A stretch of 42,671 nt of DNA from Planoprotostelium fungivorum (taxonomy: Eukaryota > Evosea > Variosea > Cavosteliida > Cavosteliaceae): positions 1 through 42,671 of the forward strand of contig MDYQ01000244.1 of the NCBI GenBank assembly GCA_003024175.1. Reading direction: 5' to 3'. A program made the translations under genes and the position numbers. The notes beneath the pieces are model-generated. The model saw nothing but the letters and a program-made list of their open reading frames with translations. It was not told the DNA's origin and made no database searches. This document shows, in pieces, positions 1 to 42,671 of this stretch. Position 1 is the first letter of the stretch; each line of letters begins with the position of its first letter.

Positions 1-3000
1 ATGCCTATCCATTCCGTCATCTTTGTGCCAGGTGCATAGTAGGTCACAAAGTAAGTGTCGCCGATCGTGTCGACATAGCAGCCCAGATACTGTGCGATGT
101 TGATGTGTTTCAGTCTCTGTTCCAACATCATTCCTTCCATCTTTCTCCATGACCCTCAACACACCTGCAGCAGCTGATCGCTCAGTCCATCGCCTGCTTG
201 TGCTCGGACTACAATGACGTTCGACAGCTGTCGACATTCTTCAGTATCACGCTACTTCTTTCATCTCACCTGATATCTAGCCTTCCTGACTCTGGGTGAC
301 AGATAGCCTATCATGACACGTCAGATATCTAAGCATCACAGATCTAACGATCACCTTCGGGTAAGATCTGATCGGCAGGAATGACATGAGGAGCCGTCGA
401 ATTTGTCGTAGTCATGTCGAAGTCGTCGTCGTTCTTCTTCAATTTACGTTTCCTGGTCATCACGATGATGAGTACGAGAGCCACTGCCAAGATGAAGACG
501 AAACCTCCAGCACCTATTCCTACCCCTGTACGTGTCACTTGTGTAACGATCTCACATTACTCACATTTCCATGGAAATGGTTTGGCTGCGATCTCGCTGG
601 GTGGTACCTCCTTCGGCGTAACTTGGAGAGAGAAAGAAGTGAGATGATTACACAGACACTTGACTGGCTGACTGCTTGTGTCTGTCGTGCAGCCCTCTCT
701 GTTCCAGCCTCTTGTGCTGTTGTCCCACCACACGCACTCGATCTCATAGCCGTCTACAGCGTTGTAGTCCATGCCGATCTCGATGGCTGATGACGTGTTA
801 TGGATGGATACTTCAGTTCCATTGGCAGAGGTGACAGACAGAGACACGACGTTCGTGAATCTACATCGATCAGTAACATACCAACTTGATTCACCGAGGG
901 TACTCACTGTACGGTATCTGTAGATGATGACGTCACGTATGGATTGAACGTATAGACAGAGAGTACGGCCGAGCTATTGACAGGCAACAGATCAGCCACG
1001 TCAGATGGAATGAGACCTGAGGCTGCACTGACACCGAAGACCAGATGCAACTGTGTTCCATTTGCAATCTGTCGTCGTCAGTGAGGGTCATTCAGCGTTG
1101 TAGATGCATCACCTTTCCAGCAGCGATAGAGATGTTGCCTGCCTCTACTACAAACGTCTTGTTCCTCTGCAAGTTTGTCGATGCGATCTGCAGCACAACT
1201 GCGTTCAGCTGCTCAGGACACTGCATCGCCAAAGGCTGTATCCCTCTCAGCTGCTCTCTGTCAGTCACACGGCCCTTCCTTCTGTCTCTGCACTCTCACC
1301 TGATCTTGCAGAACAGAAGAGGACAGAGAGCGATTGAAAGAGAGAAAGATCTGATCGCAGAAGGGGATGTCAGTGGTAGTGGCGGTAGTTGTAGATGAGG
1401 TAGAGGGGATGCTGGATGTGGTAGAAGACGTAGTGAAGGTCGATGGCTTCGTCGATGAAGTTGTAGAGGTGGATGGCTTCGTAGTGGAAGATGTGGAGGA
1501 AGTAGTCGACGTTGTAGATGTAGTCGGTTTAGTAGTCGACGTTGTTGAAGAAGTTGTCGATGTTGTAGATGTGGTCGGTTTGGTAGTAGACGTCGTAGAG
1601 GATGTTGTCGATGATGTGGAGGATGTTGTCGATGATGTGGAGGATGTTGTCGACGTTGTTGAGGAAGTCGTTGACTTTGTAGAGGAGGTCGTCGACGTTG
1701 TTGAGGATGTTGTCGACGTTGTTGAGGATGTTGTCGATGTCGTCGGCTTCGTTGTAGACGATGTAGTGGACGATGTTGTCGACGTTGTAGATGATGTCGT
1801 GCGAGCCTCTGTCATTCGCTCAGTCATCGTCTTCTCTTCTCTCTCTTCTCACGGTATGTCATCGTAGCTGCACTCGACGTGTAAGTGCAGTATCCCGACT
1901 TGACAACTACACTTCCCGTGTTCTGTGCATTCTGACATGCAGGGGCTGTACACGTGATGGTCGTGCGAGTCGATGACTTGTATGTGCATGTCCTTCCATC
2001 CACTGTCACACTTGGCGTTCCTCTGTGTCTCTGTCAGTCTCTCTCCGACATCTTCTCTTCTCTTCATCATCATCTCATCTTTCGATCATCGTGACGATCA
2101 AGACATCGATCAGGAAGATGATGAAGCTGAAGATGGAGAAGAAGGTGACTCACCCCCAGTATCTTCCTGTGATAACAATGTCTCCTCCTGCATTCGGTGG
2201 ATTTCCACTCACACTGCTTATCGTCGGTGTGTAACAGCTGCACGAGGCTGAGCAGCTGCTGCTGGCCCATCCAGGAATGGGACAGGCGAAGTTCGGTCCG
2301 GATGGCGATCTACAACCCGTCAGACCTCATCTACATACACTCTATCATCACCCTTTGCTCGACATGTCACAAGTGGCTCCACTGCCCAGCGGACTGCCCA
2401 TAGTATAATCTTCAAACTCGTCGAAAGCGTTACCAGTCAGATCTAACAGAGTCTTTGTAGAGATCGACTTGGGGACTATTCCAGGAACGCGGTTGCCCGT
2501 GGGATTGTACACAGCGTACTGATCTCCTATCACCTGAAACCCGAAGCTGAGCTCTTTGACATTGGGCATCGACCAAATGCCAGGATCAACNGACAACTAC
2601 ACTTCCCGTGTTCTGTGCATTCTGACATGCAGGGGCTGTACACGTGATGGTCGTGCGAGTCGATGACTTGTATGTGCATGTCCTTCCATCCACTGTCACA
2701 CTTGGCGTTCCTCTGTGTCTCTGTCAGTCTCTCTCCGGCATCTTCTCTTCTCTTCATCATCATCTCATCTTTTGATCATCGTGACGATCAAGACGATGAT
2801 GGTGATGAACAGATGATGATTGCGAAGTTGGTTGTGATGATGACAAAAATGAATCACCCCCAATATCTTCCTGTGATAACAATGTCTCCTCCTGCATTCG
2901 GTGGATTTCCACTCACAGAGGATGTAGTCGGTGTGTAACAGCTGCACGAGGCTGAGCAGATGCTGCTGGCCCATCCAGGAATGGGACAGGCGAAGTTTGG

Positions 3001-4152
3001 TCCGGATGGCGATCTACAACCCGTCAGACCTCATCAACATACACTCTATCATCACCCTTTGCTCGACATGTCACAAGTGGCTCCACTGCCCAGCGGACTG
3101 CCCATAGTATAATCTTCAAACTCGTCGAAAGCGTTACCACTCAGATCTAACAGAGTCTTTGTAGAGATCGACTTGGGGACTATTCCAGGAACGCGGTTGC
3201 CCGTAGGATTGTACACAGCGTACTGATCTCCCCTCACTTGGAATCCAAAGCTGAGCTCTTTGACATTGGGCATCGACCAAATGCCAGGATCAACAGTCGA
3301 TGTCAGTTTGTTACATTCCATCTGTACACGTCAGATGTCGTCCATAACATGTCACTCACTCGTATGGAAGTGCAGGTAGACATGCTGGTAAAGGAAGAGG
3401 GTACGGATGCGAAGAAATTGCGGTACAACTTCAAAGCTTGGAGATAGGTCAAGACAGAGAGGCCACCCGGGTTAGCGAATCCGGTCAAACGGTTGTATTC
3501 GAAGTCAGCCTGTGACATGGTTGAGACAAGATGGGATGGATGAAGAGACGAGATGAATACATTAGAAGACGGAGCGATTGATAGATCAAGCGCCCGAAGT
3601 GAAAGAGGGATGATGACTCACCTGTTGAAGGTTGACCATTCCGGAAAGGTCTGGGATGTTTCCGCTAAAATCGTTCGAATTGATGTAGAGGTACTTCATC
3701 TTTGTCATACTGCTCAGACCAGAGGGGATTGGGGTGTTGTATAGACCTGAGGCATCAGGATTGCTAATGTTCGACCAACTCACCCTGAAAATTGGATCCA
3801 TAATTGGTGTTACCTTGATAGTTCAACGTGATGTGTAATTCGGTCACTTGAGTTAGACCGGCACCGAATGCGTCGGGTATGCTTCCTTGTAATGCAAATT
3901 TATCCAAGTTGATTATAGTCACAACGCCTCCCGAACAGGTGATGCCAGCCCAGCTGTTGCTGCAAGGGTCACCATTGAGCCAATTGGCGTTTCCACCGTT
4001 CTGCCAAGAGCTTCCTTTATGACTTCAGTTTCGCATTTTATCGTCTAAGACTTACCTCCTGCGCTGTTATAGAGATTGACGAGATCTGTTCTCTGATCCG
4101 CCGCAAACACTGCATACACCAAGAAGACAAGGTGAGACGGTCGCATCCGCAT
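1..4152 (-). CDS. Receptor A: LRR-TIG-mucin-GPS-TM-pseudokinase receptor (3' part off the window)
   Basis: Cell-surface type I receptor of the six-member family. Exons on the minus strand: 4152-4056 (signal peptide MRMRPSHLVFLVYAVFA), 4014-3784, 3746-3622, 3509-3360 and 3321-3056 (LRRs, with a plant-like W-N-G-D-P-C cap), 3013-2858 and 2022-1853 (TIG domain), 1808-1300 (Thr/Ser stalk), 1250-1113, 1068-908 and 860-565 (GAIN-like region and GPS, CLCNHLTSF), 525-355 (transmembrane helix), 307-270, 227-165, 116-1 (start of the kinase-like domain). The model stays in frame only if the extra block next to the N at 2591 is skipped: exon pieces 2712-2592, 2590-2352 and 2309-2154 repeat LRR/TIG exons. 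Introns are 37-110 bp. The 5' half matches receptor C and the 3' half matches receptor D almost base for base. The kinase core lies off the left edge, so its activity cannot be judged. Confidence 0.85.
1364..1808 (-). repeat. Thr/Ser-codon microsatellite (mucin-like stalk of receptor A)
   Basis: Imperfect tandem array of ACN/TCN codons coding runs of TTSSTTSTTKPTT-type sequence. It is in frame in receptor A exon 8. The stalk should be O-glycosylated and extended, holding the LRR/TIG domains away from the membrane. Confidence 0.85.
1902..3294. repeat. Tandem near-identical blocks flanking a single N (receptor A)
   Basis: Block 1902-2590 and block 2592-3294 carry the same sequence (LRR exon 5, TIG exons and their introns) with a few differences, joined by one N at 2591. 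Both blocks start with gacaactacacttcccgtg and end with caggatcaac. The reading frame works with only one copy. This points to an assembly join between overlapping contig ends or between two alleles or paralogues, rather than a real internal duplication. Confidence 0.8.
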
Positions 4153-17705: not shown

Positions 17706-20700
17706 ATGGGGTCCAGTGTGTCGTATCTGCTCTTGTTTGTGGCCCTCGTCCTCCTCGATGGAGTTGACGGTCAGACTCAGGCTCAACAGAGAAGTGATCT
17801 GATGCTTCTATACAATAGCGCCGGAGGTAATGCGACTCTCATACTGGACTTCTGATTATAGGACAGGCAGTAGCTGGACATCCAAAACTAACTGGGGTGG
17901 TAGCAATCCCTGCAACTTTTATGGGGTTACCTGTGATGGGAGTGGTAATGTTGTTACTCTCAGATTGGAAAACATCGGGATGCAAGGGACTATTCCAAGC
18001 GGATTCGGACAGAACCTTGGCTACATGCAGACTCTGGCGATCACGGGGCACTATGCCGTTTCTGGTGGCACCAAAGGTGAGGCATTTCTGTGATTTGTGA
18101 TCCGACGACGAGATCGAGAGATTAAACAGAACAACAGGAGTATACGGACCTCTGCCTTCCAGTTTCACCAGCATGGGCAACTTACAGTACTTCTACATCA
18201 ATTCGAACGAGTTATCGGGCACCCTTCCAAACTTCTCTGCGTTTCCCAAGCTCATCTACGTAATGTCGCCCCGCATCATGCTTTCTGAAATTCCGCAGGC
18301 CGACTTCGAATACAATCGTTTCACAGGCTTCTCAAACCCCAGTGGTCTCACTTCCGTGACTCAACTCAAGCGTCTGTGGCTGTACCGCAACAACTTTGCG
18401 TCCATCCCTTCTGATGTGACCAGCATGTCCTCTGTGACATCCATACGAGTGAGTGGCAGGTTGTAGATGAGATCTGACGTGTGAAGGCGGAATGTAACTA
18501 CCTCACATCAAGTGTTCCCTCTGGTATATGGTCCATGCCCAACGTCAACGAGCTCAGCTTCGGATTTCAAGTGAGGGGAGACCAGTACGCTGTGTACAAT
18601 CCCACGGGTAACCGCGTTCCTGGAATTGTTCCCAAGTCGATCTCTACAAAGACTCTGTTAGATCTGAGTGGTAATGCTTTCGATGAGTTTGAAGATTACA
18701 CTATGGGCAGTCCGCTGGGCAGTGGAGCCACTTGTGACATGTCGAGCAAAGGGTGATGATAGTGTGTATCTATATGATGTCTGACGGGTTGTAGATCGCC
18801 ATCCGGACCAAACTTTGCCTGTCCCATTCCTGCATGGGCCAGCAGCAGCTGCTCAGCCACGTGCACCTGTTACCAACCGACTACATCCTCTGTGAGTGGA
18901 AATCCACCGAATGCAGGAGGAGACATCGTCATCACAGGAAGATACTGGGGGTGAGTCACCTTCTTCTCCATCGTCATCATCATCATCTTCCTGACCGATG
19001 TCGTCATGATGATCAACAGATGAGATGATGTCGGAGAAAGACTGACAGGACGCAGAGGAACGCCAAGTGTGACAGTGGATGGAAGGACATGCACATACAA
19101 GTCATCGACTCGCACGACCATCACCTGTACAGCCCCTGCATGTCAGAATACACAGAACACAGGAAGTGTAGTGGTCAAGTCAGGATACTGCACTTACACG
19201 TCGAGCGCAGCTACAATGACATACCGTGAGAGGAGAGAGAAGAGAAGACGATGACTGAACGAGGGACAGAGGCACCCACGACATCGTCGACAACGTCTTC
19301 AACGACATCGTCGACAACATCATCTACAACATCTTCTACCACATCAACAACGAAGGCGACGACATCCACAACGTCGACAACCAAGCCGATCACGTCGACG
19401 ACATCGTCTACCACGTCGACAACATCATCTACCAAGTCGACAACATCATCTACCACGTCGACGACAAAGCCGACGACCTCTACAACATCGTCCACTACGT
19501 CGACAACGAAGCCAACGACATCAACTACGTCGACAACGAAGCCAACGGCATCGACGACGTCGACGACCTCATCTACAACGTCGACTACTAAGCCGACCAC
19601 GTCCACTACTAAACCCACCACATCTACGACGTCGACGACTAAAGCTACCACTTCGACCTCTTCAACGACGAAGCCAACTACCTCCACAACTTCGACTACG
19701 AAGCCGTTGACCTCCACCAAGTCTTCTACCACATCTAGCATCCCCTCTACCTCATCTACAACTATCGCCACTACCACTGACATTCCCTTCTGTGATCAGA
19801 TCTTCCTCTCTTTCAATCGCTCTCTTTCCTCTTCTGTTCTGCAAGATCAGGTGAGAGTGCAGAGAGAGAAGGAAGGGCTGTGTGACTGACAGAGAGCAGC
19901 TGAGAGGGATACAGCCTTTGGCGATGCAGTGTCCAGAGCAGCTGAACGCAGTGGTGCTGCAGATCGCATCGACAAACTTGCAGAGGAACAAGACGTTTGT
20001 AGTGGAAGCAGGCAACATCTCTATCGCTGCTGGAAAGGTGAATGATGAGTGATGGTGTAGAGAAACTGAAAGAGATGACAGATCAAAAATGGAACACAGA
20101 TGAATCTGGTCTTTAGTAGCAGTGCAGCATCGGGTCTCATTCCATCGGACGTGGCTGATCTGCTGCCTGTGAACAGCTCTGCCATTCTTTCCTTCTATGC
20201 GTTCAATCCATACGTGATATCATCCACAGATAGCGTACAGTGAGTTTTCCTCGAGTTTTATATGGATAAATCTGATGAGACAACAGATACACCAATCTGG
20301 TCTCTCTGTCCGTCATATCACCCAACGGCACAGAGATACATGTCCATAACACGTCATCAGCCATCGAGATCGGCATGGACTACAACGCTGTAGACGGGTA
20401 CGAGATCGAGTGCGTGTGGTGGGACAACAGCACAAGAGGCTGGAACAGAGAGGGCTGCATGACAGACACAAGCAGTCAGCCAGTCAAGTGTCTGTGCAGT
20501 CATCTTACTTCTTTCTCTCTGCAACTCACGCCGAAGGAGGTACCACCCAGCGACATTGTAGCAAAGCCGTTTCCGTGGAAGTGTGAGTGGCAATGATTAC
20601 TGGAAGTGACGTGGGTACAGGGGTAGGAATTGGAGCTGGAGGTTTCGTCTTTCTTTTGGCCGTAGCTCTCGTGGTCATCATCATTGTGGCCAGAAGACGT

Positions 20701-21822
20701 AAATGGAAGACGAATGACAACGAGTTCGCTATGAAGCCTTCATCGTCGACAGCCCCTCATGTCATTCCCGCCGATCAGATCTTACCCGAAGGTAATCGTT
20801 AGATCTATGGATATTTAGAGATCTGAAGTGTCATGACAGGCTATCTGTCGCCCAGAGTCAGAAAGGCTAGATATCAGGTGAGATGAAAGAAACAGCGTGA
20901 GACTGAAGAATATCGTCAGCTATCGAATGTCATTGTAGTTCGAGCACAAGCGGGCGATGGACTGAGCGATCAGCTGCTGCAGGTGTGTTGAACGTCATCG
21001 AGAAAGATGAAAGGAATGATGTTGGGACAGAGACTGAAACACATCAACATTGCACAGTATCTGGGCTGCTATGTCGACACAGTCGGCGACACTTACTTTG
21101 TGACCTACTATGCACCTGGTACAAAGATGACAGAATGGATTGGCATGGGCAACTATGACAACGAGACAGCACATCAGACGTGAGTGATGACGTCATGACA
21201 CAGAAGAAGACGAGTGACGCAGATGACAGAGTGCTGCAGCTAGCAAACGTGATGGCGTATCTGTTCGATCAGAACGTCAACGACTATCGGCTGACAGCAG
21301 ACAAGATCATCGTGCAGCCAGACACAGGCGGTCATATGCTCAAGCTGTGGGACTTCCGCCTTGGCTCCAAGTTACCCAAGCTGTACACTGTGAGAGTCTG
21401 ATGATACAGAGAAAAGACTGACAGAGAGACAGCCGCCAGAGAAGAAGATGAGAACAGAGGCAGCGCTTGTCTGGGCGTTCGGCGTCTTATCTCAGCAGAT
21501 CATCGACAAGCAGCTGTACACCCCAAACACCCCTTACACTGAGTACTACAACGGAGAAGACATACCAGAGTCGTCTGTAGAGTTCTCAGTCAAGCAGAGG
21601 TGTGTGCAGACGAGTGAGAAGAAGAAGAGAGTGACAAGAGACAGCTTGAGGAAAGATCCGACAAAGAGGCCAACTTTCGTTGAGCTGTGCAGGAGAGGAA
21701 AAGAGATTGCCTCATCCACGTCCTTCAACGGCTCTTCAATTTCATTCCCAGCTCAGCAGAGAAGATTTCCATCCGTTTATCAGAAGCAGACGTCTGATCC
21801 TTACTCACAGATCCATATCTAA
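17706..21822 (+). CDS. Receptor B: LRR-TIG-mucin-GPS-TM-pseudokinase receptor (1097 aa, complete)
   Basis: Reference member of the family. Eighteen exons: 17706-17826, 17867-18076, 18138-18259, 18299-18448, 18487-18752, 18795-18950, 19056-19225, 19270-19850, 19900-20037, 20082-20239, 20287-20582, 20621-20791, 20840-20877, 20920-20982, 21031-21179, 21230-21389, 21433-21599, 21645-21822. Residues 1-23 are a signal peptide. Residues 24-290 are LRRs with a plant-like cap. Residues 290-398 hold a TIG fold (NAGGDIVITGRYWG, TPSVTVDGRTCTYKS). Residues 399-575 are a Thr/Ser stalk. Residues 575-767 are a GAIN-like region ending in GPS CLCSHLTSF, with the predicted cut after Leu764. The transmembrane helix is about 791-813. 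The kinase-like part (about 850-1060) has HINIAQYLGC, then DYRLTADKII for the catalytic loop (Asp and Asn lost), DFR for DFG, and the TKL-like RPTFVELC. Signalling is probably non-catalytic. Confidence 0.9.
19270..19787 (+). repeat. Thr/Ser-codon microsatellite (mucin-like stalk of receptor B)
   Basis: The longest stalk array of the cluster, about 170 codons of imperfect TTSSTT, TTSTTKPTT and TTKATT units. The repeated gtcgac and acgacg words make it prone to slippage and unequal exchange. Confidence 0.85.
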
Positions 21823-22574: not shown

Positions 22575-25500
22575 ATGTGGAGGGGGCTGTCTCTGTATCG
22601 CCTCGTTTTCTTGGCTCAGGTGATATTTGCGGACCAGACGGCGGATCTGACCGCTCTATACAACAGTGCCGGAGGTGAGATGCGGATATGATGAACTGAA
22701 ATGCGAAACTGAAGTCAAACAGGAAGTTCTTGGCAGAACGGTGGAAACGCCAATTGGCTCAACGGTGACCCCTGCGGCAACAGCTGGGCTGGCATCACCT
22801 GTTCGGGAGGCACTGTGGTCAAAGTCAATTTAGATAATTGTGGATTGCAAGGAAGCATACCTGACTCATTCGGTACCGGTCTAACTCAAGTGACCGAATT
22901 ACACATCACGTTCAATTATCAAGGTAACACTGGTTATGGATCCAACTTTCAGGGTGAGTTGATCGCACATCACGAGAACAAATCTCGCAGGATGTTGAAG
23001 ACCTGCCTCAGGTCTATACAATACACCTCTTCCTTCTGGTCTGAGCAGTATGACCAAGATGATATACCTCTACATCAATTCGAACGATTTTAGCGGAAAC
23101 ATCCCAGACCTTTCCGGAATGGTCAACCTTCAACAGGTGAGTCATCATCCCTCTTTCACTTCGGGCGCTTGATCCCTCATCCGCTTCGTCTTCTCATCCA
23201 TCCCATCTTGTCTCAACCATGTCCCAGGCTGACTTCGAATACAACCGTTTGACCGGATTCGCTAACCCGGGTGGCCTCTCTGTCTTGACCTATCTCCAAG
23301 CTTTGAAGTTGTACCGCAATTTCTTCGCATCCGTACCCTCTTCCTTTACCAGCATGTCTACCTGCACTTCCATACGAGTGAGTGACATGTTATGGACGAC
23401 ATCNTGGCTCAACGGTGACCCCTGCGGCAACAGCTGGGCTGGCATCACCTGTTCGGGAGGCGTTGTGACTATAATCAACTTGGATAAATTTGCATTACAA
23501 GGAAGCATACCCGACGCATTCGGTGCCGGTCTAACTCAAGTGACCGAATTACACATCACGTTCAATTATCAAGGTAACACTGGTTATGGATCCAACTTTC
23601 AGGGTGAGTTGATCGCACATCACGAGAACAAATCTCGCAGGATGTTGAAGACCTGCCTCAGGTCTATACAATACACCTCTTCCTTCTGGTCTGAGCAGTA
23701 TGACCAAGATGATATACCTCTACATCAATTCGAACGATTTTAGCGGAAACATCCCAGACCTTTCCGGAATGGTCAACCTTCAACAGGTGAGTCATCATCC
23801 CTCTTTCACTTCGGGCGCTTGATCTATCAATCGCTCCGTCTTCTAATGTATTCATCTCGTCTCTTCATCCATCCCATCTTGTCTCAACCATGTCACAGGC
23901 TGACTTCGAATACAACCGTTTGACCGGATTCGCTAACCCGGGTGGCCTCTCTGTCTTGACCTATCTCCAAGCTTTGAAGTTGTACCGCAATTTCTTCGCA
24001 TCCGTACCCTCTTCCTTTACCAGCATGTCTACCTGCACTTCCATACGAGTGAGTGACATGTTATGGACGACATCTGACGTGTACAGATGGAATGTAACAA
24101 ACTGACATCGACTGTTGATCCTGGCATTTGGTCGATGCCCAATGTCAAAGAGCTCAGCTTTGGATTCCAAGTGAGGGGAGATCAGTACGCTGTGTACAAT
24201 CCTACGGGCAACCGCGTTCCTGGAATAGTCCCCAAGTCGATCTCTACAAAGACTCTGTTAGATCTGAGTGGTAATGCTTTCGACGAGTTTGAAGATTATA
24301 CTATGGGCAGTCCGCTGGGCAGTGGAGCCACTTGTGACATGTCGAGCAAAGGGTGATGATAGAGTGTATGTTGATGAGGTCTGACGGGTTGTAGATCGCC
24401 ATCCGGACCGAACTTCGCCTGTCCCATTCCTGGATGGGCCAGCAGCAGCTGCTCAGCCTCGTGCAGCTGTTACACACCGACTACATCCTCTGTGAGTGGA
24501 AATCCACCGAATGCAGGAGGAGACATTGTTATCACAGGAAGATATTGGGGGTGATTCATTTTTGTCATCATCACAACCAACTTCGCAATCATCATCTGTT
24601 CATCACCATCATCGTCTTGATCGTCACGATGATCAAAAGATGAGATGATGATGAAGAGAAGAGAAGATGCCGGAGAGAGACTGACAGAGACACAGAGGAA
24701 CGCCAAGTGTGACAGTGGATGGAAGGACATGCACATACAAGTCATCGACTCGCACGACCATCACGTGTACAGCCCCTGCATGTCAGAATGCACAGAACAC
24801 GGGAAGTGTAGTTGTCAAGTCGGGATACTGCGCTTACACGTCGAGTGCAGCTACGATGACATACCGTGAGAAGAGAGAGAAGAGAAGACGATGACTGAGC
24901 GAATGACAGAGGCTCGCACGACATCATCTACAACGTCTTCAACGACATCATCTACAACATCTTCCACCACATCAACGACGAAGGCGACGACATCCACAAC
25001 GTCGACGACCAAGCCCATCACATCGACAACATCGTCTACCACGTCGACAACATCATCCACTACGTCGACAACAAAGCCGGCGACCTCTACAACATCATCA
25101 ACCTCGTCGACAACATCATCCACTACGTCGACAACGAAGCCAACGACATCAACCACGTCGACAACATCATCCACTACGTCGACAACGAAGCTAACGACAT
25201 CATCTTCGTCGACGACATCATCTACAACATCGACTACTAAGCCGACCACATCTACAACGTCGACGACTAAACCGACCACCTCCACAACTTCATCGACGAA
25301 GCCATCGACCTTCACTACGTCTTCTACCACATCCAGCATCCCCTCTACCTCATCTACAACTATCGCCACTACCACTGACATCCCCTTCTGTGATCAGATC
25401 TTTCTCTCTTTCAATCGCTCTCTGTCCTCTTCTGTTCTGCAAGATCAGGTGAGAGTGCAGAGAGAGAAGGATGGACTGTGTGACTGACAGAGAGCAGCTG

Positions 25501-27440
25501 AGAGGGATGCAGCCTTTGGCGATGCAGTGTCCTGAGCAGCTGAGCGCAGTCGTGTTGCAGATCGCATCGACAAACTTGCAGAGGAACAAGACGTTTGTAG
25601 TGGAGGCAGGCAACATCTCTATCGCTGCTGGAAAGGTGATTGATGAGTGATGGTGTAGAGAAACTGAAGAAAGATGACAGATTGAAAACGGAACACAGAT
25701 GAATCTGGTCTTTAGTAGCAATGCAGCCTCAGGTCTCATTCCATCTGACGTGGCTGATCTGCTGCCTGTGAACAGCTCTGCCATTCTTTCCTTATATACG
25801 TTCAACCCATATGTGACATCATCATCTATAGATACCGTACAGTGAGTTTTCATCGAATTTCCGGATTCGATTCAGATGATCGAATAGATATTGATGAGAC
25901 AACAGATACACCAATCTGGTATCCCTGTCTGTCACATCTCTCAACGGCACAGAAATACATGTTCACAACACGTCATCAGCCATCGAGATCGGCATGGACT
26001 ACAACGCTGTAGACGGCTATGAGATCGAGTGCGTGTGGTGGGACAACAGCACAAGAGGCTGGAACAGAGAGGGCTGCACGACAGACACAAGCAGTCAGCC
26101 AGTCAAGTGTCTGTGCAGTCATCTCACATCTTTCTCTCTGCAAGTGACGCCGAAAGAGGTGCTGCCGAGCGAGATAGCAGCGAAGCCATTTCCATGGAAG
26201 TGTGAGTGACCGAGCGGATGAATATGTACGAGATGTGACACAAGACAGGGGTAGGAATAGGAGTGGGAGGCTTTGTCTTTCTGTTAGCTGTCGTCATGGT
26301 GGTGATAGCTGTGCTGACGAGGAGAAGATGGAAGAGAAGAGAAGAGTATGATTTGGGAATGCAATCGATATCTCACGTCATCCCAGCAGATCAGATTGAA
26401 GTCACAGGTGACGTCACATCTGTATTCACGTCAATCTGACATGCAGTGACAGAACATCTGTCGACACGGATAAAGCGGGGTAGATACCAGGTGAGAGGAA
26501 ACATCTGACAGGGTCCATGATTGACAACGTCGACAGCTCGCTGACGTTGTTGTTGTGAGGCAACAAAGTGGAGATGGACTCAGTGAACATCTCCTGCAGG
26601 TGACATCGATAACAACGTAGAGAATATCGACATCTCATCTACAACGCAGAGAGTACGACACGTGAACATCGTACAATATCTGGGATGCTACAGCGATTCT
26701 GTCGGTGACAAGTACTTCGTGTACAACTATGTAGCTGGCATAGAGCTGAGCAAGTGGATGACAGCCACAGAGTATGACAACGACATGGCTGAACATCTGT
26801 GAGAGTTGTAGATGATGTGACGTCATCTGATGTGATGCAGAGTGATGCAGCTGGCCAACGTGATGACATACCTGATCGATCAAGGGGTGACAGACAACAT
26901 AGTGACGGCTGAGAAGGTCATCATACAGCCTGACAACAAGGGATATGTACTCAAGCTGTGGGACTTGAGACCAAACGTACAACGACCTGAGCTATATGTG
27001 GTGAGTTTGTGATGATGCAGCACATGACATCGAAGAAGAGGCTGAAAGAGAGACAGCCACCTGAGAAGAAGTTGAGGACCGAGACTGCACAAGTGTGGGC
27101 TTTTGGCATCTTGTCTATGCAGATCATCGAGAAGACGCTGTATCCACAAGGTGACTGAGCATAGTATACGGTCGATGATGGAGAACTGAGAGGTGATGAC
27201 AGAAACAAGCTATACAGAGTATTACGACGACAAGGAGATTCCCGATTCACTGACTTTGTATGCCGTCAAGCAGAGGTGTCGATCATGATGCAAGACATGG
27301 GAACTAATGACGAGCACAGTTTGAGGAAGATTCCAGAAAGAAGGCCGAAATTCATGGACATCTGTAGAACAGCAAAGGTTTGCGCATCGCCAAAGAAGCG
27401 ATCATTTACATCGCCCTATTTTGGAAGTGACTACATGTGA
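22575..27440 (+). CDS. Receptor C: LRR-TIG-mucin-GPS-TM-pseudokinase receptor (about 1064 aa)
   Basis: Exons: 22575-22674 (signal peptide MWRGLSLYRLVFLAQVIFA), 22723-22953, 23012-23136, 23228-23377, 24087-24352, 24395-24550, 24696-24865, 24910-25448, 25498-25635, 25681-25841, 25906-26201, 26249-26407, 26447-26490, 26537-26599, 26650-26798, 26841-27000, 27057-27150, 27203-27275, 27320-27440. The domain order is as in receptor B, with GPS CLCSHLTSF. The frame closes only if the second LRR block (23405-24048) beside the N at 23404 is left out. The LRR/TIG part is nearly identical to receptor A, but the transmembrane and cytoplasmic parts are more diverged (RRRWKRREEYDLGM). The kinase-like domain has DNIVTAEKVII at the catalytic loop and DLR for DFG, so it should be a pseudokinase. 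It carries one more intron than receptor B after EKTLYPQ, which receptors E and F also have. Confidence 0.85.
22755..24074. repeat. Tandem near-identical LRR blocks flanking a single N (receptor C)
   Basis: Block 22755-23403 and block 23405-24074 both begin tggctcaacggtgacccctg and both end gttatggacgacatc, joined by one N at 23404. They differ mainly in the first LRR: NLDNCGLQGSIPDSFG in the first against NLDKFALQGSIPDAFG in the second, the second being the receptor A version. Probably a misjoin of two alleles or paralogues. Confidence 0.8.
24910..25383 (+). repeat. Thr/Ser-codon microsatellite (mucin-like stalk of receptor C)
   Basis: About 155 codons of TTSSTT, TTSTTKPTT and TTSSSSTT units in exon 8, in frame. 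Confidence 0.85.
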
Positions 27441-33306: not shown

Positions 33307-36300
33307 TCAGATGTGGATCTGTGAGTAAGGATCAGACGTCTGCTTCTGATAAACGGATGGAAATCTTCTCTGCTGAGCTGGGAATGAAATTGAAGAGCCG
33401 TTGAAGGACGTGGATGAGGCAATCTCTTTTCCTCTCCTGCACAGCTCAACGAAAGTTGGCCTCTTTGTCGGATCTTTCCTCAAGCTGTCTCTTGTCACTC
33501 TCTTCTTCTCACTCGTCTGCACACACCTCTGCTTGACTGAGAACTCTACAGACGACTCTGGTATGTCTTCTCCGTTGTAGTACTCAGTGTAAGGGGTGTT
33601 TGGGGTGTACAGCTGCTTGTCGATGATCTGCTGAGATAAGACGCCAAAGGCCCAGACAAGTGCTGGCTCTGTTCTCATCTTCTTCTCTGGCGGCTGTCTC
33701 TCTGTCAGTCTTTTCTCTGTATCGTCAGACTCTCACAGTGTACAGCTTGGGTAACTTGGAGCCAAGGCGGAAGTCCCACAGCTTGAGCATATGACCGCCT
33801 GTGTCTGGCTGCACGATGATCTTGTCTGCCGTCAGCCGATAGTCGTTGACATTCTGATCGAACAGATACGCCATCACGTTTGCTAGCTGCAGCACTCTGT
33901 CATCTGCGTCACTCTTCTTCTTCTATACAATGACGTCATCACACTCACGTCTGATGTGCTGTCTCGTTGTCATAGTTGCCCATGCCTATCCATTCCGTCA
34001 TCTTTGTGCCAGGTGCATAGTAGGTCACAAAGTAAGTGTCGCCGACTGTGTCGACATAGCAGCCCAGATACTGTGCGATGTTGATGTGTTTCAGTCTCTG
34101 TCCCAACATCATTCCTTCCATCTTTCTCCATGACCCTCAACACACCTGCAGCAGCTGATCGCTCAGTCCATCGCCTGCTTGTGCTCGGACTACAATGACG
34201 TTCGATAGCTGTCGACATTCTTCAGTATCACATTACTTCTTTCATCTCACCTGATATCTAGCCTTCCTGACTCTGGGTGACAGATAGCCTATCATAACAC
34301 GTGAGTCCTCACAGATCTAAGATCTAACGATCACCTTCGGGTAAGATCTGATCGGCGGGAATGACATGAGGGGCTGTCGACGATGAAGACATCATAGTGA
34401 ACTGGTTCTCATTCGTCTTCCATTTACGTCTCCTGGCCACAATGATGATTACGAGAGCTACGGCCAAAAGAAAGACGAAACCTCCAACTCCGATTCCTAC
34501 CCCTGGGTGTACGTCAATCAAGGTGCGTAACTTTTCATGTCGCTCACACTTCCACGGAAATGGCTTCGCTGCGGTATTACTGGGTGGTACCTCCTTCGGC
34601 GTGAGTTGCAGAGAGAAAGAAGTGAGATGACTGCACAGACACTTGACTGGCTGACTGCTTGTGTCTGTCGTGCAGCCCTCTCTGTTCCAGCCTCTTGTGC
34701 TGTTGTCCCACCACACGCACTCGATCTCATAGCCGTCTACAGCGTTGTAGTCCATGCCGATCTCGATGGCTGATGACGTGTTATGGATGGATACTTCAGT
34801 TCCATTGGCAGAGGTGACAGAGAGGGATACCAAGTTCGTGTATCTACATCGATCAGAAACATATCCGGAAATTCGATGAAAACTCACTGTACGGTATCTG
34901 TAGATGATGACGTCACGTATGGATTGAACGCATAGAAGGAAAGAATGGCAGAGCTGTTCACAGGCAGCAGATCAGCCACGTCAGATGGAATGAGACCTGA
35001 GGCTGCACTGACACCGAAGACCAGATGCAACTGTGTTCCGTTTTCGATCTGTCATCTTTCTTCAGTTTCTGTATACCGTCGAAGACGCATCACCTTTCCA
35101 GCAGCGATAGAGATGTTGCCTGCCTCCACTACAAACGTCTTGTTCCTCTGCAAGTTTGTCGATGCGATCTGCAGCACAACTGCGTTCAGCTGCTCAGGAC
35201 ACTGCATCGCCAAAGGCTGTATCCCTCTCAGCTGCTCTCTGTCAGTCACACGGCCCTTCCTTCTCTCTCTGCACTCTCACCTGATCTTGCAGAACAGAAG
35301 AGGACAGAGAGCGATTGAAAGAGAGAAAGATCTGATCGCAGTAGGGGATGTCAGTGGTAGTGGCGATAGTTGTAGATGAGGTAGAGGGGATGCTGGATGT
35401 GGTAGAAGACGTAGTGAAGGTCGATGGCTTCGTCGATGAAGTTGTAGAGGTGGATGGCTTCGTAGTGGAAGATGTGGAGGAAGTAGTCGACGTTGTAGAT
35501 GATGTCGTTGACGTGGTCGATGTCGTCGCCTTCGTTGTCGACGTTGTAGATGATGTCGTCGACGATGTCGTGGGTGCCTCTGTCATTCGCTCAGTCATCG
35601 TCTTCTCTTCTCTCTCTTCTCACGGTATGTCATCGTTATCCCTGATGATTTGGGGTTGCCACTGCATCCTGATGTTACGACCACATTTCCCGTGTTCTGT
35701 GCATTCTGACATGCAGGGGCTGTACACGTGATGGTCGTGCGAGTCGATGACTTGTATGTGCATGTCCTTCCATCCACTGTCACACTTGGCGTTCCTCTGT
35801 GTCTCTGTCAGTCTCTCTCCGACATCTTCTCTTCTCTTCATCATCATCTCATCTTTCGATCATCGTGACGATCAAGACGATGATGGTGATGAACAGATGA
35901 TGATTGCGAAGTTGGTTGTGATGATGACAAAAATGAATCACCCCCAATATCTTCCTGTGATAACAATGTCTCCTCCTGCATTCGGTGGATTTCCACTCAC
36001 AGAGGATGTAGTCGGTGTGTAACAGCTGCACGAGGCTGAGCAGCTGCTGCTGGCCCATCCAGGAATGGGACAGGCGAAGTTCGGTCCGGATGGCGATCTA
36101 CAACCCGTCAGACCTCATCTACATACACTCTATCATCACCCTTTGCTCGACATGTCACAAGTGGCTCCACTGCCCAGCGGACTGCCCATAGTATAATCTT
36201 CAAACTCGTCGAAAGCATTACCACTCAGATCTAACAGAGTCTTTGTAGAGATCGACTTGGGGACTATTCCAGGAACTCGATTACCCGTGGGATTGTACAC

Positions 36301-37187
36301 AGCGTACTGGTCTCCCCTCACTTGGAATCCAAAGCTGAGCTCGGTGACTTGAGGCATAGACCAAATGCCAGGATCAACAGTCGATGTGAGGTAGTTACAT
36401 TCCGCCTTCACACGTCAGGTATCGTCTACAACCTCCCACTCACTCGTATGGATGTCACAGAGGACATGCTGGTCACTTCAGAAGGGATGGACGTAAACTC
36501 GTTGCGGTACAGCCACAGACGGTTGAGAAGAGTCACAGAATTGAGACCACTGGGGTTTGAGAAGCCTGTGAAATGATTATATTGGAAGTCGGCCTGCGGA
36601 ATTTCAGAAAGCATGGTATGAGTGAATGTTACCTGAGTGAGCTTGGGAAACGCAGAAAAGTTTGGAAGAGTGCCCGATAACTCGTTCGAATTGATGTAGA
36701 AGTACTGTAAGTTGCCCATGCTGGTGATACTGGAAGGCAGAGGTCCGTATACTCCTATTGTTTTGTTACAATCTCTCGATCTCGTCGTCGGATCACAAAT
36801 CACAGAAATGCTGTACCTTTGGTGCCACCATAAACGGCATAGTGCCCCGTGATCGCCAGAGTCTGCATGTAGCCAAGGTTCTGTCCGAATCCGCTTGGAA
36901 TAGTCCCTTGCATCCCGATGTTTTCCAATCTGAGAGTAACAACATTACCACTCCCATCACAGGTAACCCCGTAAAAGTTACAGGGATTACTACCACCCCA
37001 GTTAGTTTTGGATGTCCAGCTGCTGCCTGTTCTATAATCAGAAGAAGTCCAGTATGAGAGTCGCATTACCTCCGGCGCTATTGTATAGAAGCATCAGATC
37101 ACTTCTCTGTTGAGCCTGAGTCTGACCGTCAACTCCATCGAGGAAGATGAGGATCAGAGCGAACAGATGAATCGCCAACATCTTCAT
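33307..37187 (-). CDS. Receptor D: LRR-TIG-mucin-GPS-TM-pseudokinase receptor (1003 aa, complete)
   Basis: Exons on the minus strand: 37187-37070, 37026-36817, 36754-36633, 36593-36444, 36405-36140, 36097-35942, 35796-35624, 35579-35281, 35231-35094, 35048-34888, 34843-34548, 34502-34335, 34288-34251, 34208-34146, 34097-33949, 33896-33737, 33693-33527, 33484-33307. The protein matches receptor B closely in the LRRs and kinase-like domain (same DYRLTADKII, same tail DPYSQIHI). The signal peptide (MKMLAIHLFALILIFLDGV) differs from B up to LDGVDGQ. The stalk is short, about 75 residues. The end of the TIG domain (VVVTSGCSGNPKSSGITM) differs from A, B and C (VVVKSGYCTYTSSAATM), although neighbouring sequence is almost identical. 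It lies 137 bp after receptor E, same strand. Confidence 0.9.
35345..35579 (-). repeat. Thr/Ser-codon array (short stalk of receptor D)
   Basis: About 75 codons of TTSSTT/TTKATT units, less than half the length of the receptor B array, although the two genes are otherwise close. Confidence 0.8.
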
Positions 37188-37324: not shown

Positions 37325-40300
37325 TTATTCCATCATGTTGACCTGAGAATAAGGATCAACGTGTTGCCTCTGGTAGGTGTTCGCGTATCGGTCTGGGGAC
37401 AAAGTCGACTGCGATAACACTTGGACTTCTCTCCTGCAGATGTCCGCGAATGTCGGTCTCATCATCGGATCTCTCCTCAGGCTGTTCATCATCAGCACAA
37501 ATTCAATCGTGATCCGCACCTCTGCTTGACATAATACAAGGTCAGTGAATCAGGTATCACCCTGTCGTCGTAGGACTCGGTGTAACCCGATGCTGCCAGC
37601 AACAGTCAGTTCCGAGTAAAGATATTTTCAGTCACCTTGTGGATAGAGTGTCTTGTCGATGATCTGCATAGACAAGACGCCAAAAGCCCACACTTGTGCA
37701 GTCTCGGTCCTCAGCTTCTTCTCAGGTGGCTGTCCCTCTTTCAGTTTTCCACATCATTCGGCATCACAGCCTCTCACCGTGTACAATTTTGGAAGTTTTG
37801 ATCCGATTCTAAAATCCCACAACTTGAGCAGGTGACCACCGTTATCAGGCTGTATGATGACCTTCTCAGCCGTCACTATGTTGTCTACCACTTCTTGATC
37901 GATCAGATATGTCATCACGTTGGCCAGCTGCATCACTCTGTATCACGTCAGATGACGTGGCATCGCGTGCGATACATACACGGACTCTGCAGTTTCATCG
38001 CTATAGTCTCCCATGTTGATCCACTGGGAACCCTTACAGCCTGGTACGTAATGGTTGACGAGGTACGTAACTCCGACGGGATCTACGTAACATCCCAGAT
38101 ACTGAGCGATGTTGATGTGTTTCAGTCTCTGCGTTGTAGATGAGATGAAATTTCGAAGAAATAACGTACCTGCATGAACTGATCGTTCTGACCATCTTTC
38201 GCATCTGTACGTACAATGACGACATTTGATAGCTGTCGACATTGTTTAGCACCTCGTCCCTTCTTCTCTTCTCACCTGATATCTCGCTCGTCTGACTCTC
38301 GATGACAGAGAATCTATCGTCACGTCAGATTGACACGTACCTGACAGGTGATTACGTACCTTGTGGGAGGATCTGGTCTGTAGGGATGAGCAGGGGCTCC
38401 GTTGCAGATGTCAGATCGATTCTGTCGTGTTCTCTTCCTCTTCCTCTCCTCATGATGATGATGATGGTGAACACGATGAGAACCAGAAATACTACAAACA
38501 TCCCCACAGCGACTCCCACCCCTGTCTTATATTACATCTCGTACATATTCATCCACTCGGTCACTCACATTTCCACGGAAATGGCTTCGCTGCGATGTTA
38601 CTGGGTGGTACCTCCTTCGGCGTGAGTTGCAGAGAGAAAGATGTGAGATGACTGCACAGACACTTGACTGGCTGACTGCTTGTGTCTGTCATGCAGCCCT
38701 CTCTGTTCCAGCCTCTTGTGCTGTTGTCCCACCACACGCACTCGATCTCGTACCCGTCTACAGCGTTGTAGTCCATGCCGATCTCGATGGCTGATGACGT
38801 GTTGTGAACAGGTATTTCAGTGCCGTTGAGAGATGTGACAGAGAGGGACACCAAATTTGTGAATCTGACGCCGTGTCACTCAAATCGTGTGGAAATCTCA
38901 AAGAAAGCTCACTGTACACTGCCCGTGGATAATGGTATCACGTATGGATTGAAAGAGTAGGAAGTCAGAACGGCCGAACTGTGGGCAGGCAGTGATTCAG
39001 CCACATCAGATGGAATGAGACCCGATGCGTTGTTCTTCTTGAAGATAAGGTGCAGTTGCGTTTCGTCGATCTGATCTCATCTTAATCTATGAGATCTGAT
39101 TTTATCTACCTGATAGGCCGTAATGGAGATATTCTGGGATTCGATGGAGAAGGAGCCGTTCGTCTTCAGATTCGCATTCGCACTTCTCAGAATGAGCATG
39201 TTCATCTCGTCGGGACATTCGCTGGTCAGAAGATCAAAGTTGTCCGTCTGGTCTTGGTCAGAAAAAGAGTGCAACGGGTGACATACCGCTACCAGCTGAT
39301 TGATGTCGAATGATGTGATGGTGGGAATATTTTCACAGAAGGGGACGAATACCGTAGAGGCAATCGTTGTAGATGAGGATGTCGTACTCGACGTCGTTGA
39401 AGATGTCGTAGATGATGTCGTTGAAGATGTCGTGGATGATGTTGTACTCGATGTTGTAGGAGGTTCTGCAGAAATCTCAGTGAAAACTCATCCGTTTTCT
39501 CTTCCCACGGTATGACATCGTAGCTGCGCTCGACGTGTAAGTGCAGTATCCCGACTTGATGACCACACTTCCTGTGTTCTGTGCGCTCAGACATGCAGGG
39601 GCTGTACAGATGATAGATGTACGATTGAATGTCACGACGGTGCATGTCCTTCCATCCACTGTCACACTTGGTGTTCCTCTATGGCTCTGTCATTCCCTCT
39701 TCTATGAAACGTTCGTCTCATCGACGCGATGATGGAGATCGTGATGATGATGAGGATGATGAAGATGACTCACCCCCAGTACCTTCCTGTGATAACAATG
39801 TCTCCTCCTGCATTCGGTGGATTTCCACTCACACTGCTTATCGTGGGCGTCTTACAAGTACAAGAAGCTTTACAACTATTGACCGCCCAAGACGGAATGG
39901 GGCAGGCAAAGTCAGGTCCCGACGGCGATCTACAACCCGTCAGACGTCATCCAACTCGAACGATCACCCCATTTTCGTCATGTTACACGTCGCCCCACTG
40001 TTCAATGGACTGGCCATGTTGTAGTCTTCGAATTCATCGAAAGCGTTGCCACTCAAGTCCAACAGATCTTTGCTCGTGATCGACGCGGGAACGACTCCAG
40101 GAATGCGATTTCCCGTGGGATACACGGCGTATTGGTTCCCGGTCACTTGATAGCCAAAGTTGAGCTGATTCACCTTGGACATGGTCCATATTCCGCTGGG
40201 TACGCTCGTCAGGTAATTACACTCGGCCTGTACACGTCAGCTTCGTCTGTGACGTACGATTCACTCTTATGGATGTCAATGAGGTGGCGCTGATGATGTC

Positions 40301-41041
40301 GGCAGGGATCGATGCGAAGTTGTTGCGGAAGAGCCACAGACGGTTGAGGGAAGTTAAAGCGGAGAAGCCAGAGGGTGTAGAGAAACCAATGAAACGGTTG
40401 AATTCGAGCTCCGCCTGAAGAGTTTGAATTCTTCATCACGGGGTGGAGGGGTGCGACTCACCTGTTTGAGCTGAGAGAGGGGAGAGAGGTCTGGAATGAT
40501 GCCTGACAGCTCATTCGCATCGATGTAGAGGTACTGTAAGTTGACCATCTGAGTGAAGGTGGAAGGTAAAGTGCCATGAAAACCTGAGGGTACGTCACTT
40601 GAATGATTCGCATCATCACATCGGCTGCAATGTTGGCGCGATGGACAGCCCGAAGCTCACCCAGATTTCCATTTTGAGCGTAATGTAAGGTGATGGATAG
40701 AGTTTGCAAGTAATACAGGTTCTTTCCAAACGTGCTGGGGAAAGTTCCTTCCATGCCGATGTTGTTCAACTGGACTCCGATCACATTACCGTTTCCGTCG
40801 CAGTTAACATTCTGAAAGTTACAGGCATTGGTGCCACCCCAGCCGTTCCCATTGTTACCTGACCAGGAGCTTCCTATTCTCGATCAGGCGTGACAGACCA
40901 AAGATGGATAGTACCTCCAGCGCTGGTATACAGATCGTTGAGGTCTTGCGTCTGTTGTGCTTGTGTTGGCAGAGAGACAGCCATTCGGATCGACATCAAG
41001 GCGAAGATCGATGAGAGCCATCCTCTCCTCCATACCTCCAT
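37325..41041 (-). CDS. Receptor E: LRR-TIG-mucin-GPS-TM-pseudokinase receptor (about 954 aa, complete)
   Basis: Exons on the minus strand: 41041-40915, 40873-40661, 40583-40462, 40414-40265, 40227-39968, 39929-39774, 39678-39509, 39465-39287, 39247-39110, 39070-38913, 38864-38569, 38521-38360, 38313-38276, 38232-38170, 38128-37980, 37937-37778, 37729-37636, 37592-37520, 37481-37325. The LRR half is clearly diverged from the other copies (LRR start GSSWSGNNGNGWGGTNACNF), while the TIG start and the GPS (CLCSHLTSFSLQ) are almost unchanged. The stalk is only about 35 residues. The kinase-like part has DNIVTAEKVII and DFR (catalytic Asp and Asn absent). The transmembrane segment is MFVVFLVLIVFTIIIIM. 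The Met at 41062 is an alternative start; 41041 was chosen because it gives a compact signal peptide (MEVWRRGWLSSIFALM). Confidence 0.88.
39345..39465 (-). repeat. Thr/Ser-codon array (minimal stalk of receptor E)
   Basis: About 35 codons of regular TTSSTTSSTT. It is the shortest and most uniform array of the family, giving a near-perfect microsatellite. Confidence 0.75.
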
Positions 41042-41176: not shown

Positions 41177-42671
41177 TTAAGCCATTTTGGTATTATACTG
41201 ACGCTCTTCGTCAAAGTCATCATCAAAGTCTGATGATACATGTTTCGGTCTGATCGACCATTCCTTTCCCCTCTGACACAACTCCATGAACGAAGCTCTG
41301 CTCTTCGGACTCTTCTGCAAGCTGTAACCAGATCAACAGCACATCTTCTCATCTTCTTCTCACCTCACGGCGATGAATGATTCAATACTTGTGATCGTCG
41401 ATTCATCACCGTCCGTGTATCTAATGTAAGTCGACTCTGTCGCATCATCAGCCTGCGAAGACATGAGGCACCCACCTCTCAAATACAATCTCCTCTCCGC
41501 AATCTGTAATGCCAAGATTCCGAACGCCCACACTAACGATGCCTCTGTGACCACTCCCCCGCTCTTCTTCTCTGGAGCCTACAGCCGTCAGCATGACGTA
41601 CGATGACGTCATCTGTTCCCACCGTGTACAGAGGAGGCAGATTGGACACCGAGCGAAAATCCCACAGCTTGACTGAATAAGAACCTCTCTCGTCAGGCTG
41701 CATGATGATCTTCTCCGCAGTGAGATCGATATCTCTGACCCCCTGCTGAACCAAGTGAGCCATCACATTGGCCAGCTGCAGCACTCTGCGTAAGATGTCA
41801 GATGATGTCATATATAGAGGTGGTGGTTACGCACGTCTGTCTGGCCATATCATCCGTGTACCCTCCTAATTTGATCCACTGAGAGAGATGATCACCGGGT
41901 ACGTAACTGGTCACGTGGTAAGCTTCTCCGATGGTATTGATCCAGCATCCCAAATATTGTGCGATGTTGACGTGCCTGATTCGCTGGATGCGGTTCAGAC
42001 CCGTTGTAGATGACACTCTCTACGAGACCCACCTGAAGGAGGAGGTCACTCTGTCCATCGGCTTCCTTCTTGGTCAATACGACATCGACTAACTTGATTT
42101 TATCAGTTTATATCACGTGATTACAACTCACCTGATATTTGGCCATCTTACATCTAGATGACAGGTGTTCACCTGAACGATGAGATTAGGGTGGAGAATC
42201 GGTGGGAAACGTCACTCACTTGCCAGATGAATCTGGTTGGTGGGAATGGAGTGGGACGACGATTCGACCAGATCGATCTCGTGAAATTCGATCTTCTTGC
42301 CTCTCCTCTTCATGATGATGAGGATGATCACCGTGACGACCACCGCGGCGAAGATGAAACCTCCGATCCCGATGCCGATCCCTGCGTACGTTACGTCTGT
42401 CCCACGAATTCTCCCTCACATTTCCCGGGAAATGTGGAGGCTTGCGATGGTGTATCGCCGACTACGCTGTTCTTCTGTGCAATTTGCAGGGAGAAGCTGG
42501 TCAAATGGTTGCAGAGACATTTTACGGGCTTGCTAGTGACATCAGTCTGGCAGCCGTCTGGTTTCCATGACGACACCGTCTTGTCCCACCACACACAAGT
42601 GAGATCCTCCGAATCTACAGCGTTGTAGTTCATTCCGATTTCGATGGAAGATGACGTGTTGTAGACTGAAA
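41177..42671 (-). CDS. Receptor F: GPS-TM-kinase-like receptor (5' part off the window)
   Basis: Exons on the minus strand: 42671-42420 (GAIN end and GPS, CLCNHLTSFSLQ), 42381-42220 (transmembrane helix IGGFIFAAVVVTVIILIIM), 42172-42132, 42092-42033, 41983-41835, 41785-41623, 41578-41476, 41436-41364, 41321-41177. The most diverged member. Its kinase-like domain keeps more than the others: a lysine at the beta-3 position (VDVVLTKKEADG, where the others have Arg) and an Asp at the HRD position (VRDIDLTAEKII). It still lacks the catalytic-loop Asn (Lys instead), has DFR for DFG and no glycine loop. The C-terminus is acidic (SSDFDDDFDEERQ). LRR, TIG and stalk should lie to the right of the window. 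Its stop is 135 bp before the receptor E start. Confidence 0.85.

Follow-up and report, generated by a model that had tools for sequence, protein, structure and literature searches.

Putative self-cleaving, single-pass receptor pseudokinases encoded by a gene cluster of the protist Planoprotostelium fungivorum

The DNA analyzed here, referred to as the window, is a 42,671-nucleotide stretch of Planoprotostelium fungivorum (contig MDYQ01000244.1, positions 1 to 42,671, forward strand) that carries six copies, A to F, of a receptor gene. A sequence-only reading of the window had described the encoded protein as a single chain of leucine-rich repeats (LRRs), a TIG domain, a mucin-like stalk, a GAIN-like region with a GPS cleavage motif, one transmembrane (TM) helix and a pseudokinase. 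Based on copy B and its relatives in the genome, we consider that these proteins are probably self-cleaving single-pass receptor pseudokinases whose kinase fold acts via an active partner kinase. The start codon of copy B (ATG, 17706) and its stop codon (TAA, 21820-21822) lie where that reading had placed them, and assembly of the exons, which it had called for, by hand splicing at GT-AG introns gives an uninterrupted frame of 17 exons and 1,113 amino acids with no internal stop (Table 1); copy C served as the splicing guide for two of these exons. Gene-finder variants offer two in-frame alternatives that leave the domains unchanged: removal of what is probably one more intron (39 nt, 18260-18298), and use of an acceptor site 18 nt ahead of position 20100.

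In Pfam scans, the full-length copy B protein matches GPS (3.4e-11), PK_Tyr_Ser-Thr (1.2e-6, or 1.7e-8 for the kinase part taken alone) and LRR_1 (1.5e-4), with LRRNT_2 just below its cut-off of 20.7 bits (20.2 bits, 7.4e-4) and no TIG line at E<=1. When the protein is cut in pieces, TIG reaches 35.2 bits against a cut-off of 20.9, LRR_1 reaches 2e-8, and LRRNT_2 rises above its cut-off (22.2 bits, 1.8e-4). The solved structures nearest to the LRR part, compared by sequence after removal of the 39-nt intron from the query, are plant LRR receptor kinases, namely, MIK2 (1.2e-38), GSO1 and FLS2. The domain order of copy B recurs in copies A to E when its parts are searched against the window by tblastn, and of copy F only the kinase and GPS fall inside the window; the common order first read from the window thus holds in the other five copies as far as each runs. 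The raw TIG exons of A, B, C, D and E all score above the TIG cut-off (22.3 to 25.5 bits), and stalk-like frames are present in the same five copies.

Single exons bridge the parts of copy B: exon 19264-19850 holds the TIG end, all of the stalk and the beginning of the GAIN-like region, and exon 20287-20582 spans the GAIN-like region, the GPS and the approach to the TM helix. In copy D, the GPS and TM helix share one unspliced frame of 215 amino acids, in which a short in-frame intron is read as coding sequence; after the GPS, an ErbB-type TM profile scores 17.8 bits, below cut-off. In the paralogue L029, the GPS, the TM helix and the start of the kinase lie in one 201-amino-acid frame without splicing, where Pfam reports the GPS and weak single-TM profiles only because the kinase piece is too short. 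For seven other members (three with long models, four downstream only), GPS and PK_Tyr_Ser-Thr occur in the same intron-spliced model, both above cut-off in six of the seven; in the L065 model the GPS is cut short (18.1 bits), and the raw L065 GPS match is above cut-off. LRR, GPS and kinase also occur together in the models of L029 and L030.

The genome (36.9 Mb, 471 contigs) contains at least 150 GPS matches above cut-off; these are the 150 scored of 176 candidates, one has an internal stop, and some may be alleles. DNA was read for 68 GPS loci. Six are the window matches; the other 62 belong to the 69 top-scoring matches elsewhere in the genome, with long flanks for 22 of them and downstream DNA only for 40. 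Grouping by DNA identity yields 67 groups at 97%, 65 at 95% and 57 at 90%, so that most of the 68 are distinct genes. Counts of the HRD, Lys and HLT residues were taken from raw frames, whereas domain content, TM counts and substitution ratios rely on gene-finder models, and the gene finder merges neighbors at loose settings and misses exons. We observe GPS, single TM and kinase fold as a recurring module with variable ectodomains in the loci read, and a family larger than the window alone could show. In the lower-scoring half of the GPS ranking, PF07714 matches lie 505 to 1,059 bp downstream of four GPS loci and, found by eye, 2,045 bp downstream of a fifth on C65. C65 and C190 carry arrays of intron-poor PK_Tyr_Ser-Thr matches in frames of approximately 290 amino acids, and the C65 match 2,045 bp from a GPS is one of these.

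The GPS assignment is borne out by the Pfam match in spliced copy B together with matches of its GAIN-GPS piece to the solved GAIN domains of ADGRG3 (9.3e-7), ADGRF1 (6.4e-6), ADGRG6 (residues 84-201, 2.1e-4), BAI3 (0.0054) and latrophilin-3. The HLT cleavage tripeptide is present in 68/68 loci, a conservation that is partly ascertained because the loci were picked with the GPS profile, and the surrounding C-x-W-W...G pattern, GC and CxC-like residues are found in 68, 67 and 66 of the 68, respectively. After the predicted cut, family members begin with TSFSLQL or TNFTLG/TNFSIG and continue through a linker into one TM helix. A structural model of a copy D piece (C-terminal GAIN half, GPS and TM, folded from the unspliced frame reading through the short in-frame intron ahead of the TM) has seven strands and one helix, with a mean predicted local distance difference test score of 72.3 and a predicted template modeling score of 0.48. 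The five solved chains that it matches best all contain GAIN, two being from BAI3 and the others from BAI2, CD97 and ADGRG6, at probabilities of 0.96 to 1.00 but E values of 0.009 to 0.095, none at E<=0.001; the model thus supports the GAIN identity on a partial domain. In viral contigs, the GPS profile gave no match that tblastn upheld.

The pseudokinase part of the sequence-only reading also stands, as we find a kinase fold from which the usual catalytic motifs are lost. Aligned to CSK, copy B has a degraded Gly loop and a replaced beta3 Lys (VIVVRAQ), reads DYR for HRD and DFR for DFG, and carries Lys for the loop Asn. Among the paralogues, the kinase fold of L065 matches ABL1 at 6.5e-19, and the seven scanned (four of them downstream-only pieces) score 43.7 to 110.5 bits against PK_Tyr_Ser-Thr. 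A small profile combining two active kinases (ABL1, CSK) with eight family members made the catalytic loop readable straight from genomic frames in 60/68 loci, and the catalytic Asp is absent from 58 of these, or from 40/42 when only loops of at least 15 bits are counted. The HRD-Asp column holds R in 20 loci, I in 8, Q in 7, N in 7, S in 5, A in 5, D in 2, H in 2, L in 2, Y in 1 and C in 1. The loop Asn is kept in 7/57 loci read, and among 28 loci with a readable DFG the motif is never intact (Asp kept in 16, Gly in 11). Eight loops were unreadable (L018, L024, WA, L036, L050, L058, L064, L069); WA and L036 are truncated where their sequences end, and four of the eight show other kinase pieces. 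A beta3 Lys in a TTxVAVKK-like context, sought with a pattern of our own making, is readable in 36/68 loci, and therefore many members retain the ATP-site Lys in the absence of the catalytic Asp; in the window clade this Lys is replaced or not found. As a control, 71 HRDLKxxN DNA motifs occur in the genome (reversed pattern, 1), none of them in the 8 kb that follow any of the 150 GPS matches on its own strand (nearest, 8,707 bp); an unrelated kinase on the opposite strand of L021 reads HRDLKPEN in the fetched DNA. Judged from these residues, the kinase-like tail seems to be catalytically incompetent.

At most one TM-like segment follows the GPS in 68/68 models, some of which are short. Membership of the adhesion G protein-coupled receptors (GPCRs) is rejected, since no second TM segment was seen after the GPS in these models and a kinase fold comes next instead; a 7tm_2 profile search of the genome gave no match, and its control matched nowhere either. 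The ectodomains vary, with TIG below cut-off in the relatives L020 (20.5 against 20.9 bits) and L026 (15.8 bits). A subgroup (L009, L016, L017, L022, L028) possibly has a lectin-like N terminus in place of LRRs, an identity left unconfirmed by a sub-cut-off B_lectin match in L028 (14.8 bits against 32.4) and by a PDB comparison of the L022/L028 subgroup that matched nothing meaningful.

Selection on copy B was measured by the Nei-Gojobori ratio of nonsynonymous to synonymous substitution rates (dN/dS), with a gene-finder model as the partner in every pair. For the kinase part, dN/dS is 0.10 against L010 (214 codons), 0.14 against L012 (204 codons) and 0.21 against copy D (204 codons), and 0.03 against copy A over only 75 codons; the GAIN-GPS part gives 0.14 to 0.17 in the same pairs. 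Several more distant pairs have saturated silent sites, and the computable kinase ratios there are 0.18 to 0.27. TIG ratios are 0.5 to 1.0 in four close pairs and the highest of any part measured in two. The catalysis-deficient kinase fold is therefore kept by selection, and a decaying pseudogene is rejected for the kinase part on the ratios of 0.10 to 0.21 in three pairs of 204 to 214 codons.

Among the neighboring genes, a SMP-30/gluconolactonase-like gene (16436-17446, plus strand; three frame pieces with PF08450 matches) lies directly upstream of copy B, an SH3 domain gene is found at 15494-15805 (plus strand; SH3_9, 9.5e-11), and the interval between copies C and D (approximately 28.5 to 33 kb) holds a gene-finder model with a PAN domain and a weak, sub-cut-off chitin-binding match. 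The duplications beside single N positions in copies A and C (Table 1) may be assembly artefacts or joins. Elsewhere in the genome, C1:305-322 kb and C335 partly mirror the window copies in GPS spacing and sequence, and these probably represent alleles or segmental duplicates on separate contigs. Copy E is at least 95% identical to L019; copy F is at least 99% identical to L026, and those two may be alleles or a recent duplication.

Table 1. Positions of copy B, its exons and domains, and the other receptor copies in the window
Feature	Positions	Strand	Basis or remark
Copy B, whole gene model	17706..21822	+	Hand GT-AG splicing, 17 exons, 1,113 amino acids
Copy B, exons 1-6	17706-17826, 17867-18076, 18138-18448, 18487-18752, 18795-18950, 19041-19225	+	
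Copy B, exons 7-12	19264-19850, 19900-20037, 20100-20239, 20287-20582, 20621-20791, 20840-20877	+	
Copy B, exons 13-17	20920-20982, 21031-21179, 21230-21389, 21433-21599, 21639-21822	+	
Copy B, signal peptide-like N terminus	17706..17771	+	Judged by eye from translation
Copy B, LRRNT_2-like cap and plant-type LRRs, with introns	17772..18876	+	Pfam, PDB relatives
Copy B, IPT/TIG domain, with intron	18877..19225	+	PF01833 1.3e-8, 35.2 bits; raw exon 24.9 bits
Copy B, Thr/Ser-rich mucin-like stalk	19264..19778	+	Same exon runs on into GAIN-like region
Copy B, GAIN-like region ahead of GPS	19779..20407	+	ADGRG6 match 2.1e-4 (query 84-201)
Copy B, GPS motif, CSHL/TSF (slash, predicted cut), tripeptide HLT	20408..20521	+	50.7 bits
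Copy B, single TM helix	20621..20700	+	Spliced translation, TM segment count
Copy B, pseudokinase domain and tail	20780..21822	+	Pfam, alignment to CSK, catalytic-loop profile
Copy A, kinase cut by window end	3..4101	-	GPS 626-739; partial internal LRR/TIG duplication adjoining N 2591
Copy C	22596..27389	+	GPS 26027-26140; partial LRR duplication adjoining N 23404
Copy D	33379..37166	-	GPS 34609-34722; GPS and TM in one open frame 34327-34971
Copy E	37397..41008	-	GPS 38630-38743
Copy F, 3' part only	41261..42666	-	GPS 42487-42600, kinase-like domain

Besides the ascertainment of the HLT tripeptide, several observations weigh against the reading as self-cleaving single-pass pseudokinases. All 68 loci come from the better-scoring half of the GPS ranking, and an adjoining kinase match was the reason for including L029 and L030. 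At the threshold used, a TM segment is missing from 22/68 models, at least seven of the models fall short of 100 amino acids and could hide more segments, and a three-frame scan that finds a TM-like segment in 61/68 loci also finds one in 26/68 on the reverse strand. In two of the 60 loops, those of F and L026, Asp occupies the catalytic column (DID); among the five window copies with a readable loop, this is so in copy F only. Loop scores range from 5.5 to 64.4 bits, and 8/60 fall below 10 bits; these were accepted partly because the position is shared by all 60 loops, which fall at residues 254-316 when the frame is numbered from the GPS. No kinase piece was recognized in L058 and L069, and gene conversion in the cluster could lower dN/dS.

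For copy B-type receptors we infer cleavage, ligand, partner and mechanics from sequence, as follows. The outer part (LRR plus TIG in the window clade) would bind a ligand on a surface or nearby cell, perhaps microbial or prey surfaces, a guess drawn from the LRR ectodomain. GAIN domains cut at HL/T and the two parts remain bound, and here too the domain would cut itself during maturation, leaving the outer part held only non-covalently until a pull or ligand binding loosens or removes it. In animals, the new N terminus after the cut (TxFAVLM-like) is a tethered agonist; the fragment remaining here, with its TSFSLQL-type end, linker, one TM helix and kinase fold, may change its pairing in the membrane. 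Pseudokinases such as HER3 activate partners, and the kinase fold, which would not phosphorylate, may likewise switch on an active partner kinase allosterically or offer it a place to dock.

The rival that survives best, though we regard it as unlikely, is that these are adhesion or capture molecules in which the GAIN domain is a mechanical fuse shedding the outer part and the inner domain a non-signaling cytoskeletal or sorting anchor. The mucin-like stalk, the TIG and LRR ectodomain, the tandem cluster and the TIG ratios would all fit such a role; the strong constraint on the whole kinase fold speaks for a specific binding role instead, which is suggestive and not decisive. Less probable still is that the kinase-like domains catalyze in an unorthodox way, using a different residue as base, and form working receptor kinases. 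The beta3 Lys readable in 36/68 loci, the Asp in F and L026 and the first Asp of DFG kept in 16/28 lean that way, but no single residue replaces the Asp lost from 58/60 loops (R, I, Q, N, S, A, H, L, Y or C is found), the loop Asn is lost in 50/57 loci read, DFG is intact in 0/28, and the window clade also lacks the Gly loop and beta3 Lys. That two adjacent genes, one for an LRR/TIG surface protein and one for a GPS/kinase protein, were joined in reading is very improbable and we reject it: introns are many and short and the gene models were read from DNA only, but single exons bridge the parts, among them the exon shared by TIG end, stalk and GAIN start, the order is kept in window copies and other loci, and the unspliced L029 frame is common to GPS, TM and kinase start.

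Beyond the reading of self-cleaving receptor pseudokinases, we tentatively suggest a wider possibility, namely, that the at least 150 GPS matches mark a GAIN-based receptor superfamily that cuts itself without a seven-transmembrane (7TM) bundle, cleavage and tethered segment controlling a single-pass pseudokinase. A fixed GAIN-TM-pseudokinase engine would then carry interchangeable ectodomains (LRR, LRR plus TIG, perhaps lectin-like) as a third architecture beside adhesion GPCRs and polycystins.

The first reading knew of no described family with this combination, and we likewise found none in the open-access literature: text searches that paired GPS or GAIN with words for kinases in part returned no paper, and among the papers that came up in others, mostly judged from their search entries, none appeared to describe the architecture. 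The term GPS is absent from the main text of the Physarum and Acanthamoeba genome papers and an Acrasis paper (PMC4758236, PMC4053784, PMC11589745). Relative to the open-access literature, and eukaryotic database annotation aside, the combination of LRR, TIG, stalk, GAIN/GPS, TM and pseudokinase may be new.

With adhesion GPCRs (ADGRG3, BAI3, latrophilin), the family shares a large modular ectodomain and a GAIN/GPS with an HL/T site, recognized by sequence and partial fold with cleavage predicted; unlike them, it has one TM helix and a kinase-fold tail in place of 7TM. Its inner part would work like HER3-type receptor pseudokinases, with a catalytically weak receptor tail activating a partner, whereas its ectodomain is unrelated and the HER3 type has no self-cleavage. 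Polycystin-1 has a multi-pass channel-like part and differs there from this family, in which no channel-like TM region follows the GPS in the models read; nine PKD_channel matches in the genome, compared by eye, include none adjoining a GPS. The likeness lies in a GAIN/GPS outside the classic adhesion GPCRs, polycystin-1 being described as an atypical adhesion GPCR with a GAIN domain (PMC13197933). Complex adhesion GPCR N termini are said to be restricted to holozoans (PMC12716839), and the family-2 GPCRs of Amoebozoa examined in one study are reported without GAIN domains (PMC10445921). Reported 7TM-RGS proteins of Naegleria, described for Naegleria fowleri, carry GPS motifs and are similar as protist signaling receptors with complex ectodomains (PMC9283941), but the present family combines a single TM with a pseudokinase.

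LRR-kinase receptors had initially been called typical of plants, which calls for a qualification: LRR-TM-kinase proteins are reported across eukaryotes, Amoebozoa included (PMC13091385, whose main text contains neither the term GPS nor the term pseudokinase). Copy B likewise joins plant-type LRRs, a single TM and a kinase-fold tail in one chain; unlike LRR receptor-like kinases, the family adds GAIN/GPS, TIG and mucin stalk and has lost the catalytic motifs (Lys, HRD Asp, DFG), as expected of a pseudokinase. Dictyostelium has a TIG receptor kinase, rk3 of the DRK family, which is reported as single-pass with an extracellular TIG and a TKL-like kinase (PMC1420674); extracellular IPT/TIG domains, as in Met/plexin and rk3, are found in window copies A to E, and the term GPS is absent from the main text of that paper. 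Where purifying selection is measurable it accompanies loss of the catalytic Asp, which across many diverged paralogues would make for an unusually large natural set of receptor pseudokinases. To our knowledge, GAIN autoproteolysis has been studied almost only in 7TM and polycystin proteins, and a natural family with GAIN and one TM helix would offer a direct test of the roles of cleavage and tethered segment where a 7TM bundle is absent. What the window appears to encode is a plant-like LRR receptor architecture fused, in a protist, to an animal-like self-cutting domain.

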